This document shows positions 7,930 through 59,843 of a DNA stretch of 64,000 bases, one piece after another. Where the stretch lies: positions 3,241 through 67,240 of the forward strand of contig CAMYMN010000007.1 in NCBI GenBank assembly GCA_947259395.1, written 5' to 3'. Position 1 is the stretch's first letter. Every line of letters starts with the position of its first letter. Under the pieces are notes generated by a model that saw only the letters and a program-made list of their open reading frames with translations, searched no databases and was not told where the DNA came from. The position numbers and the translations under genes were made by a program. The DNA is from an uncultured Gammaproteobacteria bacterium. Lineage in GTDB: Bacteria > Pseudomonadota > Gammaproteobacteria > Arenicellales > JAANXG01.

Positions 7930-8604
7930 TTAATCCGGACACCAAGCCCCGGCAGTTATTATCTCCGACGGAATCACCCCGCCCAAAAACTCCCGCTCCA
8001 CATTCTCAAACCCCGCCTCCTCAACAAACTCCCCCATCAACACCGGCCGACAAGAACCCATCACATTCAGCACAAACGAAGCCGGTAACTTTTCATACAA
8101 CCGCTCATACCAACTCACCCTTTCATCGTCTTTCTTGCTCATATTCAACAACACCAACCGCCCGCCCGGCTTCAGCACCCGGCAAAACTCGGCCAGGATC
8201 CCAGGCATGTCGGCAAACGGAATCAGATCGAGCATGTAGGCGTTGTACAACACATCAAACGTATCGTTATCAAAATCCAGCCTCCGCGCGTCGCCCTCGC
8301 GCAGATCGAAATTGTCATACCCCACCGCGGCCAGCGTGTGCCGTGCGATCGCCAACATCCCGGGCGCCGCATCGACGCCAAGGGCGACATTGTCCCGGTC
8401 AATCCGCTTGACGATCTCCAACAACGCGCGCCCCGGCCCCACCGCCACCTCCAGGACCTTGTCCGCGGGCCGGATCTTCGCCCTATCAATCGCGCGTCGG
8501 TGATTGCGGAACTCAAACGGCGCCACGAGCTTGCCGTACAGCCAACTTCGCCGGTCATAGGCGCGGCGGATTTGTTTTGGTTCAAAGGGGCGCGCATCTA
8601 TCAT
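7930..8604 (-). CDS. Class I SAM-dependent methyltransferase (UbiE/Methyltransf_11-like)
   Basis: A 224-residue protein with motif I VLEVAVGPGRAL (about residues 50-61), an acidic strand end GVDAAPGMLAIARHTL for SAM ribose binding, REGDARRLDFDNDTFD and the post-III LKPGGRLVLLNMSK. This arrangement is that of small-molecule methyltransferases near UbiE/COQ5. The substrate is not readable; UbiE itself is longer and lies with ubiquinone genes, which are absent here. The final CxxD-type tail (GAWCPD) is unremarkable. It is a single gene on the minus strand, next to the repeat cluster at 7811. Confidence 0.85.
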   Translation of the reverse strand: MIDARPFEPKQIRRAYDRRSWLYGKLVAPFEFRNHRRAIDRAKIRPADKVLEVAVGPGRALLEIVKRIDRDNVALGVDAAPGMLAIARHTLAAVGYDNFDLREGDARRLDFDNDTFDVLYNAYMLDLIPFADMPGILAEFCRVLKPGGRLVLLNMSKKDDERVSWYERLYEKLPASFVLNVMGSCRPVLMGEFVEEAGFENVEREFLGGVIPSEIITAGAWCPD

Positions 8605-28836: not shown

Positions 28837-28944
28837 AATTCACGGAGCAAGATACTCAATTCGATATGCGCTTGGGTTCGAGGTCGCGTTGGTATGGTTC
28901 CCGGTCGATCTTCAATAATTTTTAATATTCTGTCTCCGGGATTC
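28837..28944 (+). repeat. Family C element, full copy
   Basis: AATTCACGGAGCAAGATACT left, ATGCGCTTGGGTTCGAGGTC core, TTAATATTCTGTCTCCGGG right. It lies about 35 nt upstream of the DUF3303 ribosome binding site. Confidence 0.85.
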
Positions 28945-29238
28945 TCGTCCAATTTTGGCCGCACGCAGCGCGTTATTAACTTGGGTATTGAAGCAGCGCA
29001 AGATGTTTCGTATCGGCACGAAACATGAACCGTCGAAACTCGAGGGGATACAGTAGCGTTGGAGGTTTGTTGTTCACGGTCATGCGCGGCGCAGAAGATC
29101 GGACCAATGTATGACGCCAACTTTTACCGCCGGTTTTTAGGAATGGTAGTAACAACGACCTTCCCTTTATCCGCCCCCACCTATACCTTTTTTGGATCAA
29201 AGAAAAACGGATAGCAAAACCTGAGCACAACGTCGGCG
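28945..29238. other. Intergenic region, no supported gene
   Basis: A 35-codon frame at 29107-29214 (+) begins MYDANFYRRFLGMVV and ends FFGSKKNG, but lacks a ribosome binding site and any known family. It may be a gene fragment. Nothing else is recognisable. Confidence 0.35.
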
Positions 29239-30372
29239 TTAGGCTTCGCCTGCGATCGCCACCCTGGGAACACGTTCGGTAATGCCGGTGACTATTTCAT
29301 AGCTGATCGTGCCAAGCTTCCCGGCCAGTTCTTCTGCGGTGATTTCTTCATCACCCTGGCGGCCGACAATCACCACTTCGTCACCCAACGCCACGCGCCC
29401 GCGCAACGCAGTGACATCGATAACACTCTGGTCCATGGTCACACGGCCAACCTGGGGGCATCGCACCCCGCGCACCAGCAGTTCAAAATTGTTCGAAAGC
29501 CGCCGGCTCAGTCCGTCCCCATACCCAGCCGGCACCGTCGCGATCAGCGATGGTCTCGCAGTGTGAAAGGTGTGCCCGTAGCTGAGTCCGGTGCCTGCGG
29601 GAACTTCCTTGAGAAAGGTGATCCGTGTCTTCCATTCCAGTACCGGTTGGAGCTCTCCAACTCTTGGATGGATGATCTCCGGTGAAGGCCGCAGGCCGTA
29701 CAGAGCGATTCCTGGGCGCACCGCATCGCAATGGGAATCCGGGAGGTCAAAAATAGCGGCGCTGTTTGCCATGTGCCGGACTTCGATGCCGAATTGCCTG
29801 GTAGCCGCAACACATTGACGGAATTTTTCGGTCTGCTGCCGAGACTGGGTCTTATCGGCTTCGTCTGCACGGGGGAAATGCGTCATCAGCCCGCGAACCC
29901 GGATCCCGGGAAGGGCTGCGCAGCGCTCGAGAAATGCCGGTGCGTCTTCGGGGCGGATACCGATGCGCCCCATGCCGGTATCGACTATGAGATGCACCGT
30001 CACCGTGCGCCCGAGCCGTTGCGCATCACGTGCCAGGGCTGTTGCGCATTCCATGGTACACACCGCCGGTTCGCAGCCGAGTCGCACAATCGCCTCGCTG
30101 TGTTCGGGAAGCGTCGCAGAAAACAGCAACAAGGTTGCATCCACGCCGGCTTCCACCAAGACCTGCGCCTCGCTCACGTGCGCAACGCAAAGCGTGTCGC
30201 AGCCGAGCGTAACGAGATGCCGTGCGACGAGCCGCATGCCATGCCCGTAGGCGTTCGCCTTGACTGCCGGCCACAACGGCCGTTGGCCGGCGAGCTCCTG
30301 TAGCAGGTGCAGGTTGTGTGTCAGCCGGTCGAGGTGAATGTGGGCTCTGGTGAGCGGTGCCGTATCCGTCAT
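29239..30372 (-). CDS. alr: Alanine racemase
   Basis: A 377-residue PLP enzyme that interconverts L- and D-alanine for peptidoglycan. The PLP lysine lies in VKANAYGHGM near residue 39, the second catalytic base Tyr in VPAGYGDGLSR, and the family blocks MGRIGIRPEDA, MTHFPRADEAD, VRPGIALYGL and GRVTMDQSVIDV are present. Length is normal (about 360-380). The ATG (30372) overlaps the stop of an upstream racemase remnant in ATGA, so the remnant once headed this operon. Whether this is the only alr copy cannot be judged from the window. Confidence 0.93.
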   Translation of the reverse strand: MTDTAPLTRAHIHLDRLTHNLHLLQELAGQRPLWPAVKANAYGHGMRLVARHLVTLGCDTLCVAHVSEAQVLVEAGVDATLLLFSATLPEHSEAIVRLGCEPAVCTMECATALARDAQRLGRTVTVHLIVDTGMGRIGIRPEDAPAFLERCAALPGIRVRGLMTHFPRADEADKTQSRQQTEKFRQCVAATRQFGIEVRHMANSAAIFDLPDSHCDAVRPGIALYGLRPSPEIIHPRVGELQPVLEWKTRITFLKEVPAGTGLSYGHTFHTARPSLIATVPAGYGDGLSRRLSNNFELLVRGVRCPQVGRVTMDQSVIDVTALRGRVALGDEVVIVGRQGDEEITAEELAGKLGTISYEIVTGITERVPRVAIAGEA

Positions 30373-30605
30373 GGGCCATCGTCGCAACATTCAGCCCCGC
30401 GGATGATTGCTTGACCGACACGCGCATGATTAATGCGTGCGGGAACACCGCCCGCAGTGAAGAGCTCGAGCCCGCTCGAATTGAATCCCACGACCGCGCT
30501 TAGTTTCAGCGTGAAAGTATTCTCAATCTTGTGTGTGAGTTCTGCCAATACACTCATACTGTCTTCGTCGGGCACGACGCCGCGGACGCAGGCAAGGTTG
30601 GTTTC
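30369..30605 (-). pseudogene. C-terminal remnant of an ornithine/alanine-type PLP racemase
   Basis: About 79 residues match the end of the PLP-dependent ornithine/alanine racemase family: TNLACVRGVVPDEDSM, then VLAELTHKIENTFTLKL, VVGFNSSGLEL and PARINHARVGQAIIRGAE (family: GTNLAC, GxNS, RINxLRxGEAIL). The N-terminal three quarters with the PLP lysine are absent. Homology stops where the family C element at 30603 begins, and only repeat sequence (MRILSPE) leads into it. The TGA overlaps the alr ATG, which suggests a former racemase operon. A fragment of this kind cannot be active. Confidence 0.75.
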
Positions 30606-30706
30606 GGGGGACAGTATACGCAATTCGTTTTGCGCTTGGGTCCGGCGTGGCGTTGGCGCAGATCCCGGCCGCGTCGTTCAAATTAAGTATACTGCCCCCG
30701 GAATTC
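30603..30706 (+). repeat. Family C element, near-consensus full copy
   Basis: TCGGGGGACAGTATACGCAA left, TGCGCTTGGGTCCGGCGTGG core, GATCCCGGCCGCGTCG and AATTAAGTATACTGCCCCCG right. It ends 8 nt before the stop codon of the gene at 30715 and truncates the racemase remnant. Confidence 0.9.
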
Positions 30707-30714
30707 CGGGACGC

Positions 30715-31005
30715 TTATTCCTTTGGCTCGTACACGTCGAAGATTTGCACGGACGGCGGTTCTGTCAGGATGTCGCTCACCATCTCGCGGATATGGAGTT
30801 TCGTGGCTTGACTCACGGCCTCGGCATCGTCTTTGCTCTGCCACACGCTAAAACTGCCATAGCGGCCGGTGGCTTCGTCGCGAAAGAAGCTTACATACTC
30901 AAATCCCGGCATAGTCTTCATGATGGCACCGGCTTTGTCAGCCAATTCTTCCGCCGTGGACCGGTTCCCGGGTTTCAGTGCGAGTGTAACCAAACGTGCG
31001 TACAT
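30715..31005 (-). CDS. Small ABM/dimeric alpha-beta barrel protein
   Basis: A 96-residue protein with the antibiotic-biosynthesis-monooxygenase (ABM) fold pattern: strand MYARLVTLALKPG, helix STAEELADKAGAIMKTMPGF, strand EYVSFFRDEATGRYGSFSVW and helix DDAEAVSQATKLHI. Such domains are small haem-degrading or quinone-oxidising enzymes, or orphan dimers; no catalytic residue identifies which. The start has GGAGGAATAAATATG upstream. A sister gene of similar size and layout lies at 39860. Confidence 0.75.
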   Translation of the reverse strand: MYARLVTLALKPGNRSTAEELADKAGAIMKTMPGFEYVSFFRDEATGRYGSFSVWQSKDDAEAVSQATKLHIREMVSDILTEPPSVQIFDVYEPKE

Positions 31006-31428: not shown

Positions 31429-31493
31429 ACGGGGTTGCGTTGGTACGGATCCCGGCCGCTTCGTGCTGATTAAGTGTACTGTCCCCGGAATTT
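31429..31493 (+). repeat. Family C element, right half
   Basis: ATTACGGGGTTGCGTTGGTA, GATCCCGGCCGCTTCGTG and ATTAAGTGTACTGTCCCCGG. The left quarter is gone. It ends 8 nt before the stop of the rubrerythrin remnant. Confidence 0.85.
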
Positions 31494-31501
31494 ACCGGAC
31501 T

Positions 31502-31885
31502 TTATCGCATGCCGTCTTCCGGTTGCGGCGGTCCAGGGTAACCGGCTACCTCGTGGTACTCGGTATGTGGATGACCGCATATCGGACATTGCCGTGTGGG
31601 CAGTTCGACCAGCGTCGAGCCACAAATCTGGCAAATGTGGTACCTGGACGCCGTGTCTTCGATACGCGCCGCGAGAAGGCCAAACCATTTGGTTGCTGCA
31701 TTTCGGATCTTGATCATCAGATCCCGATGCTGTTTCTCTGCTTTCCATGCATAGGTGATGTTGGAAATCGCATTTTGATGGGCCTCGGGTCGGACCTGCG
31801 CCAAGATGGCGGGGTATTCCTTGTCTATTTCTTGCGCCTCCACCTGAGTGGCGTGTCTGATATTTTCCTTAGTATGCCCGACCTT
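31502..31885 (-). pseudogene. C-terminal half of a rubrerythrin
   Basis: The readable frame contains VGHTKENIRHATQVEAQEID, KEYPAILAQVRPEAH and YAWKAEKQHRDLMIKI, the second helix pair of a long rubrerythrin with its E-x-x-x-Y-P and E-K-x-H ligands. A rubredoxin-like knuckle follows (YHICQICGSTLVELPTRQCP then ICGH; two CxxC). The first ferritin-like helix pair is missing: an in-frame TAG lies at about 31909 and only a GTG (31843) could start translation. Rubrerythrins reduce peroxide through a di-iron site, which needs both halves, so this is probably a decaying fragment. A rubredoxin-only product cannot be excluded. Confidence 0.75.
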
Positions 31886-50859: not shown

Positions 50860-51300
50860 TCGTACCCTCGTGAAATCGGGGGCAGAACTACGTTCGGAGC
50901 GACAGACAGATGTTCGGCACAACTGACAGCGCGCCGGTTTCCTCGCCGCGTATGGAACGACAGTTCAATGGTCGATAGATCGATGTCACATCAAGAGATA
51001 TTGGAGTGAAAATCTCCCCTGCTGTGCGGGGACGAGTGTCACGATTGTCGTGGCAACATGCCGCTCCCATGGATGTCATCCCGACAAGCGTAGTGCGGAG
51101 GGATCTCAACCTGTTAAGTTGCCACCAGCATCCAAGACGGTGAGATTCCTCACTGCATTCGGAATGACATATAGATGCTCGGAATGACCCACGGTGGGTC
51201 GGATGCATCGCTGCGCTCGGGACGACTTCAAATTTTCGGAGTCAGGAAGCGACGGTGTTGAACTCCTCCTGCGCTCACAGCCGTTGATGGTGGGACCACC
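50860..51300. other. Repeat-filled intergenic region
   Basis: No gene. It includes a CCCCTGCTGTGCGGGG hairpin at about 51017 and a family D palindrome at 51075-51170. The hairpin also occurs at 7866. Confidence 0.6.
51075..51170. repeat. Family D interspersed palindrome, copy 1
   Basis: GTCATCCCGACAAGCGTAGT on one arm and ATTCCTCACTGCATTCGGAA then TGAC on the other, with a CCACCAGCATCCAAGACGG loop. It resembles the widespread GTCATTCCGAGCGCAGCGAG intergenic repeat of bacteria. Confidence 0.7.
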
Positions 51301-59404: not shown

Positions 59405-59457
59405 CGGGACGGTTCTATTGGTAAGACTTATTCTGAAAAAAATAAGTCGGTCCCCAT
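59405..59457 (+). repeat. Family B element
   Basis: GCGGGACGGTTCTATTGGTA at the left, TTCTGAAAAAAATAAGTCGG then TCCCC at the right. Confidence 0.7.
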
Positions 59458-59492
59458 TGCTGTCCCATTAACAAGTAGTGCCAGCAATTTAT

Positions 59493-59652
59493 GTCATTCC
59501 GAACGCAGTGAGGAATCCGACCTGTCGTTGGTCGTCCCGAGCGTAAGCGAGGGATCTTTCGTGTTGAATGACGGTAGCTACCCTTAACACGGTAAGATCC
59601 CTCGTTGCTGCGCATCTCGGGATGACAGAAGCAAAGTACGCCTCGGGATGAC
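59493..59652. repeat. Family D interspersed palindrome, copy 3 (multi-unit)
   Basis: GTCATTCCGAACGCAGTGAG (59493), a second unit GTCGTCCCGAGCGTAAGCGA (59531) and the inverted arm ATCCCTCGTTGCTGCGCATC then TCGGGATGAC (59597). A third tip CGGGATGACG follows. Confidence 0.75.
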
Positions 59653-59843
59653 GCCTGTGGGAGTGGCTTTCCTGGGCCAAACTGATGATTCTTACTAGCG
59701 GATATCACCACGAGCTTGGTTTCATGTCTCTATATGTTGTGGTATCGGCCAAGACGTTTATAGATGAAGGATTATTGACGCTGACCTTTCCACTTAGTCG
59801 GACAGCAGTGAGTCGGTCCCCAATTTTCATTTTGTTGTTGTGT

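Follow-up and report, generated by a model that had tools for sequence, protein, structure and literature searches.

Remains of an ornithine racemase gene between a palindromic element and an intact alanine racemase gene in an uncultured gammaproteobacterium

Gene loss through recombination between repeated elements is known in bacterial genomes. The locus described here resembles such losses in that a single repeat is left at the joint of two formerly separate loci, but differs from them in that the two-repeat intermediate is not observed. The genes concerned are those of ornithine catabolism: ord, ortAB, oraSE and orr form the anaerobic oxidative L-ornithine degradation cluster of clostridia, as set out in PMC8803604 and PMC3091704, the latter of which gives D-alanine as a product of ornithine oxidation. 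Relatives of the bacterium studied here likewise carry ord, ortA, ortB, oraS, oraE and orr in one run. In contrast to the clostridial cluster, however, this run belongs to uncultured Gammaproteobacteria and ends in the alanine racemase gene alr, and the window (the whole 64,000-nucleotide stretch of DNA that was analysed) retains only a scrap of orr.

The repeats found at the joint, here called family C elements, can be compared with REP elements and their REP-associated tyrosine transposases (RAYTs), which PMC2817692 describes as occurring in >100 copies and in alternating orientation in BIMEs. Like REP elements as presented there, C elements are short palindromes lying mostly outside genes, and the window's genome holds a Y1_Tnp gene flanked by inverted sequences resembling C ends; unlike them, C elements are about 103 bp long, diverged, present in low tens of copies and uniform in orientation within each contig. 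Our reading of the locus, to which we give a probability of roughly 85%, is that a segment next to alr is all that survives at this place of a dead orr, which stood sixth in the cluster ord-ortA-ortB-oraS-oraE-orr-alr; the outer joint would have formed via C elements and the inner deletions during decay, with alr spared by selection.

The orr remnant and its counterparts in relatives

In what follows G000 is the window's own assembly and G001-G005 are five other genomes of the same genus; four of these relatives have public names, as the uncultured Gammaproteobacteria MAGs FCS_M_Gamma_073, 074, 075 and 077. A racemase-like segment that terminates in RINHARVGQAIIRGAECCDDGP is encoded by an open minus-strand frame whose end lies at 30369. 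Searched against NCBIfam, the remnant (30369-30602, minus strand) matched the ornithine racemase (Orr) model NF040742 with E 7.7e-16 and 58.1 bits, which agrees with the original prediction of a remnant of an ornithine-type racemase. The same prediction took the segment to be the C-terminal ~79 codons of the protein; this is ruled out by the model positions matched (156-227 of 351) and by alignment with relatives. Protein and DNA alignments instead place an interior part of orr in frame with the last 10 codons and the stop:

30404-30602, minus strand: orr interior, about codons 159-225 of the 365-codon gene of relatives (NF040742 positions 156-227 of 351; 79% DNA identity to G002 and G005; protein alignment)
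30401-30403, minus strand: mark left by the in-frame loss of 390 bp (130 codons), flanked by TCC on either side in G002 (alignment with G002, G005 and G001; codon count)
30369-30400, minus strand: end of the orr reading frame, its TGA sharing bases with the alr ATG (alignment, codon count)

Codons 1-158 and 226-355 of orr are thus absent, the latter 130 through the in-frame deletion, at which there is a 3-nt TCC repeat that is present on both sides in G001 as well as G002. The remnant's TGA (30369-30371) overlaps the ATG of alr (30370-30372), as had been noted earlier. The open reading frame as listed begins at a TTG within the neighbouring C element, and its initial codons are therefore not racemase. 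The remnant itself reads open over about 76 codons and most likely yields no functional protein. Its 58.1 bits compare with a curated cut-off of 480 for NF040742, and with so many codons absent we class it as a pseudogene scrap of orr and no member of the working Orr genes.

It is barely credible that the segment has nothing to do with orr and is a short gene of unrelated or convergent origin. Such a reading can point to the lack of any match in Pfam (up to E 1) and to the chance matches returned by a phmmer search of the PDB (best E 0.67), but an unrelated family is refuted by the Orr model match, by DNA identity to the orr genes of relatives (79% over about 200 bp in G002 and G005, 71% in G001) and by the position of the segment directly upstream of alr, where relatives carry orr.

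A search of 145 related genomes, the window's own included, with the Orr model gave matches in 22. Six of these are near-complete (G001, G002, G005, G012, G023 and G077), that in G003 is truncated by a contig end and that in G000 is the window fragment; the remaining 14 are weak (at most 29 bits) and consistent with other racemases. A complete racemase directly upstream of alr, as anticipated for relatives, is present in three of the five other same-genus genomes (G001, G002 and G005), and the run ord-ortA-ortB-oraS-oraE-orr-alr also occurs at two loci from other genera and assemblies (L110 and L111; Alr 67% identical), cluster neighbours having been checked at L110-L118 out of 29 loci. Adjacency of orr and alr at these five places is thus the older state. 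In G003 orr runs off the contig end, and in G004 alr is present without a full orr, only ~22 end codons being left; the short ORF of the window was kept as a separate gene in no relative seen.

The gene order before alr in G002 is carbamate kinase, ord, ortA, ortB, a gene in the position of oraS, oraE and orr. Carbamate kinase, ord, ortA, ortB and oraE score above their NCBIfam equivalog curated cut-offs, while the 117-aa product of the oraS-position gene has no NCBIfam match, the gene being named by its place, and Orr of G002 reaches 417.9 bits, below the model cut-off of 480. The complete cluster (ord, ortAB, oraSE, orr) is found in G002, G005, L110 and L111, and is spread over two contigs in G001. 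The two-racemase operon of the original prediction is therefore right as to orr and alr being neighbours in relatives, but understates what was broken, a seven-gene ornithine-oxidation cluster. A search for papers that treat ornithine racemase together with alanine racemase and aminomutase returned none from the collection searched.

The cluster of G001 is itself broken between oraE and orr (C2 17032-23346, L137; C73 1260-3482, L061). The break on the oraE side lies away from the contig end, and no C element was found at this split.

The joint at the family C element

On the side away from alr, the remnant gives way to an element and then to an unrelated locus:

About 30604-30706, minus strand: family C palindromic element at the joint, 103 bp (profile 87.4 bits on the minus strand and 59.3 on the plus strand; hairpin z -3.09)
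30715-31005, minus strand: ABM-domain gene (PF03992, Pfam) on the far side of the element, located elsewhere in G005 (C37) and G002 (C186)

The element profile was built from the window's own C elements, and none of 200 shuffles folded as stably as the element. Homology to orr stops at 30601-30602, within about 2 nt of the element's edge, in line with the earlier claim that it ends there; on the ABM side homology ends within about 0-9 nt. The ABM gene is 83-85% identical in DNA to the genes of G005:C37 and G002:C186, neither of which is near orr. With orr on one side and the ABM locus on the other, one C element thus joins two loci that are separate in relatives. No C element lies just past the ABM stop in G005:C37 or G002:C186, and those two flanks differ from each other.

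The outer joint probably arose when two C elements, one within orr and the other next to the ABM gene, recombined and left a single element, or when a transposase acting on them did so. The inner deletions would be ordinary short-repeat deletions during decay. The relatives compared showed no element within orr or next to the ABM gene, and hence no two-element intermediate, and a causal role of the C element in the break at orr is likely but unproven.

A less probable course of events is that illegitimate joining came first and that the C element is a passenger, inserted later at the joint itself or next to the ABM gene. In G004 the cluster was lost with carbamate kinase joined straight to the last ~22 codons of orr and no element involved, and C elements are common, the window having 17 that span 60 bp or more; both points would suit a passenger. 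However, the homologies on both flanks end at the element's edges, making chance insertion exactly into the joint unlikely. Gene neighbourhoods also speak against it: all 10 assessable pairs with a C element between them are broken in every relative assessed, compared with three of seven pairs without one (p 0.015), although the no-element class consists largely of operon pairs and this p is therefore not independent evidence of causation. That comparison used genes chosen by hand, 26 of them in 2.7-36.4 kb; of their 25 pairs 17 were assessable, with matches taken from at most 40 scored candidates per genome and relatives that are drafts of 120-390 contigs.

Formation of the joint via C elements thus remains our preferred explanation. 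Of the element-linked deletion proposed originally, the part that stands is that the element fills the joint of two loci apart in relatives; the loss of the cluster in G004, with no element at its joint, shows that this can also happen without one.

The joint could also be an assembly artefact, contigs of different loci having been misjoined at a repeated element, in a genome that is a 222-contig draft and at an element that is repetitive. We consider this very unlikely, as the element copies are diverged and the longest exact string that the joint shares with the stretches compared (the window and four stretches of G000) is 17 nt, which speaks against misassembly at a repeat, and the inner deletions, lying on the side of the element that faces alr, attest decay independently.

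The 17 C-element spans of the window (9573-50527) all score best on the minus strand, and the genes among them occur in both orientations. The elements are about 103 bp long and often occur one per gene at 21.8-31.5 kb; same-strand clusters are also seen on G005:C22, G005:C78, G002:C274 and G004:C87. On all eight relatives' contigs that have both elements and window-homologous genes, the elements keep their strand relation to most such genes, the exceptions being a HEAT gene in G005:C7 and G002:C287, with one G001:C73 element tied. The Y1_Tnp gene of G000 (L148 2560-3219; PF01797, 4.9e-10) lies between inverted C-end-like sequences, not full C elements, which score 36 and 26 against a null maximum of 21 in 200 shuffles. 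From these sequence features we read C elements as REP-like elements that often sit at breakpoints.

It is doubtful that C elements are instead recombination sites punctuating gene-sized blocks that are excised and re-inserted without inversion, in an integron-like manner without a known integrase, with orr cut as the alr block moved through it. No integrase was found among the 31 window proteins scanned with Pfam, and in a comparison for half-element exchange the seven pairs at matching flanks were no more alike than background, at 0.57-0.72 against a mean of 0.61-0.64. A candidate tyrosine recombinase at 7930-8604 of the window was rejected, since Pfam identifies it as a methyltransferase. 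An ORF of G004:C47 (L062 18793-19278), beside a HigA-like ORF, reads like a possible tyrosine recombinase fragment. Evidence of causation would add to the value of the wider pattern, in which gene order is broken where palindromic elements lie on one strand.

Other repeat families, at about 51075-51170 and 59440-59828 of the window, have very many copies in the genus and lie near gene-order breaks. A short ORF at 31505-31843 (minus strand), with a weak rubredoxin-like zinc-ribbon match (PF21349, under the cut-off), lies beside a partial C element (31429-31492), and may also be a remnant.

Loss of the cluster and survival of alr

Nothing in G000 matches the 6,855 bp of G002 that correspond to the region upstream of the remnant (L059:4600-11454, carbamate kinase to orr codon ~158). 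No other Orr was found in this assembly up to E 1, and OraE, present in four of the six genomes of the genus, is in neither G000 nor G004, so that the orr scrap is all that is left in G000 of the oxidative ornithine cluster. As G000 is an 86.6% complete draft of 222 contigs, from which a second cluster copy or another alr could be missing, the case for loss of the cluster is strong but not final.

In G004, only the carbamate-kinase end (962 bp) of L059:4600-11454 is matched, and the end of the carbamate kinase gene is fused directly to the last ~22 codons of orr, with no C element at the joint. A tree of five alr sequences pairs the window with G002 (support 0.962), a genome in which the run is complete. 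Given this pairing, and a joint in G004 that differs from that of the window and has no element, the cluster looks to have been lost twice, independently, in one genus.

The alr gene and its downstream side comprise the following:

29239-30372, minus strand: alr, an intact alanine racemase with N- and C-terminal domains (PF01168, 5.9e-69; PF00842, 1.8e-45; TIGR00492, 1.2e-96)
29134-29238, plus strand: remnants of a P-loop-like gene that follows alr in relatives (29134-29189 matches L059 13845-13900)
28960-29138, plus strand: fragment similar to the beginning of the gene that comes next in G005 (L060 782-957; DNA match)
28837-28944, minus strand: family C element bounding the alr block on its far side (element profile)

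Between this element and that at about 30604-30706, alr is the only intact gene. The P-loop-like gene lacks 588 bp before alr resumes at L059 13256, and about 1.67 kb is missing between its remnant and the piece of the next gene. The window's Alr reaches 323.9 bits against the TIGR00492 cut-off of 168, and so belongs to the Alr family, and alr is 81-87% identical to its counterparts in relatives. G000 has two further PF01168 proteins, one YggS-like and one LysA-like, which leaves alr as the only alanine racemase found there. Selection would have spared it because the cell wall has no other supply of D-alanine. The remnant has a dN of 0.120 (0.058-0.193) on the window branch and alr one of 0.043 (0.028-0.060), intervals that barely touch; omega of the remnant is 0.48, poorly bounded (0.14-8.96).

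Could the short ORF owe its survival to a leader or coupling role, directing ribosomes to alr once the operon promoter had been lost? The frame survives the 390-bp deletion and the TGA/ATG overlap with alr is kept, both deletions downstream of the joint leaving coupling intact. A promoter scan also gave a single weak site directed toward alr (30548-30519, 9 of 12 matches), where 0.4 would be expected by chance. Yet one deletion in three preserves frame by chance, the remnant's dN is raised and G004 retained a different, shorter end of orr, and we regard such a role as improbable, preferring that of a dead fossil.

The segment is a genuine gene fossil, resolved in detail and of a kind already known, and not a new kind of gene. 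The locus also suggests why alr was in the ancestral run at all: Alr would convert the D-alanine of the pathway to L-alanine, which would finish the ornithine pathway, and the gene would later remain as the sole source of D-alanine. The value of the locus lies in a dated, base-level record of a whole catabolic run being lost while an indispensable gene survives, apparently twice independently in one genus.
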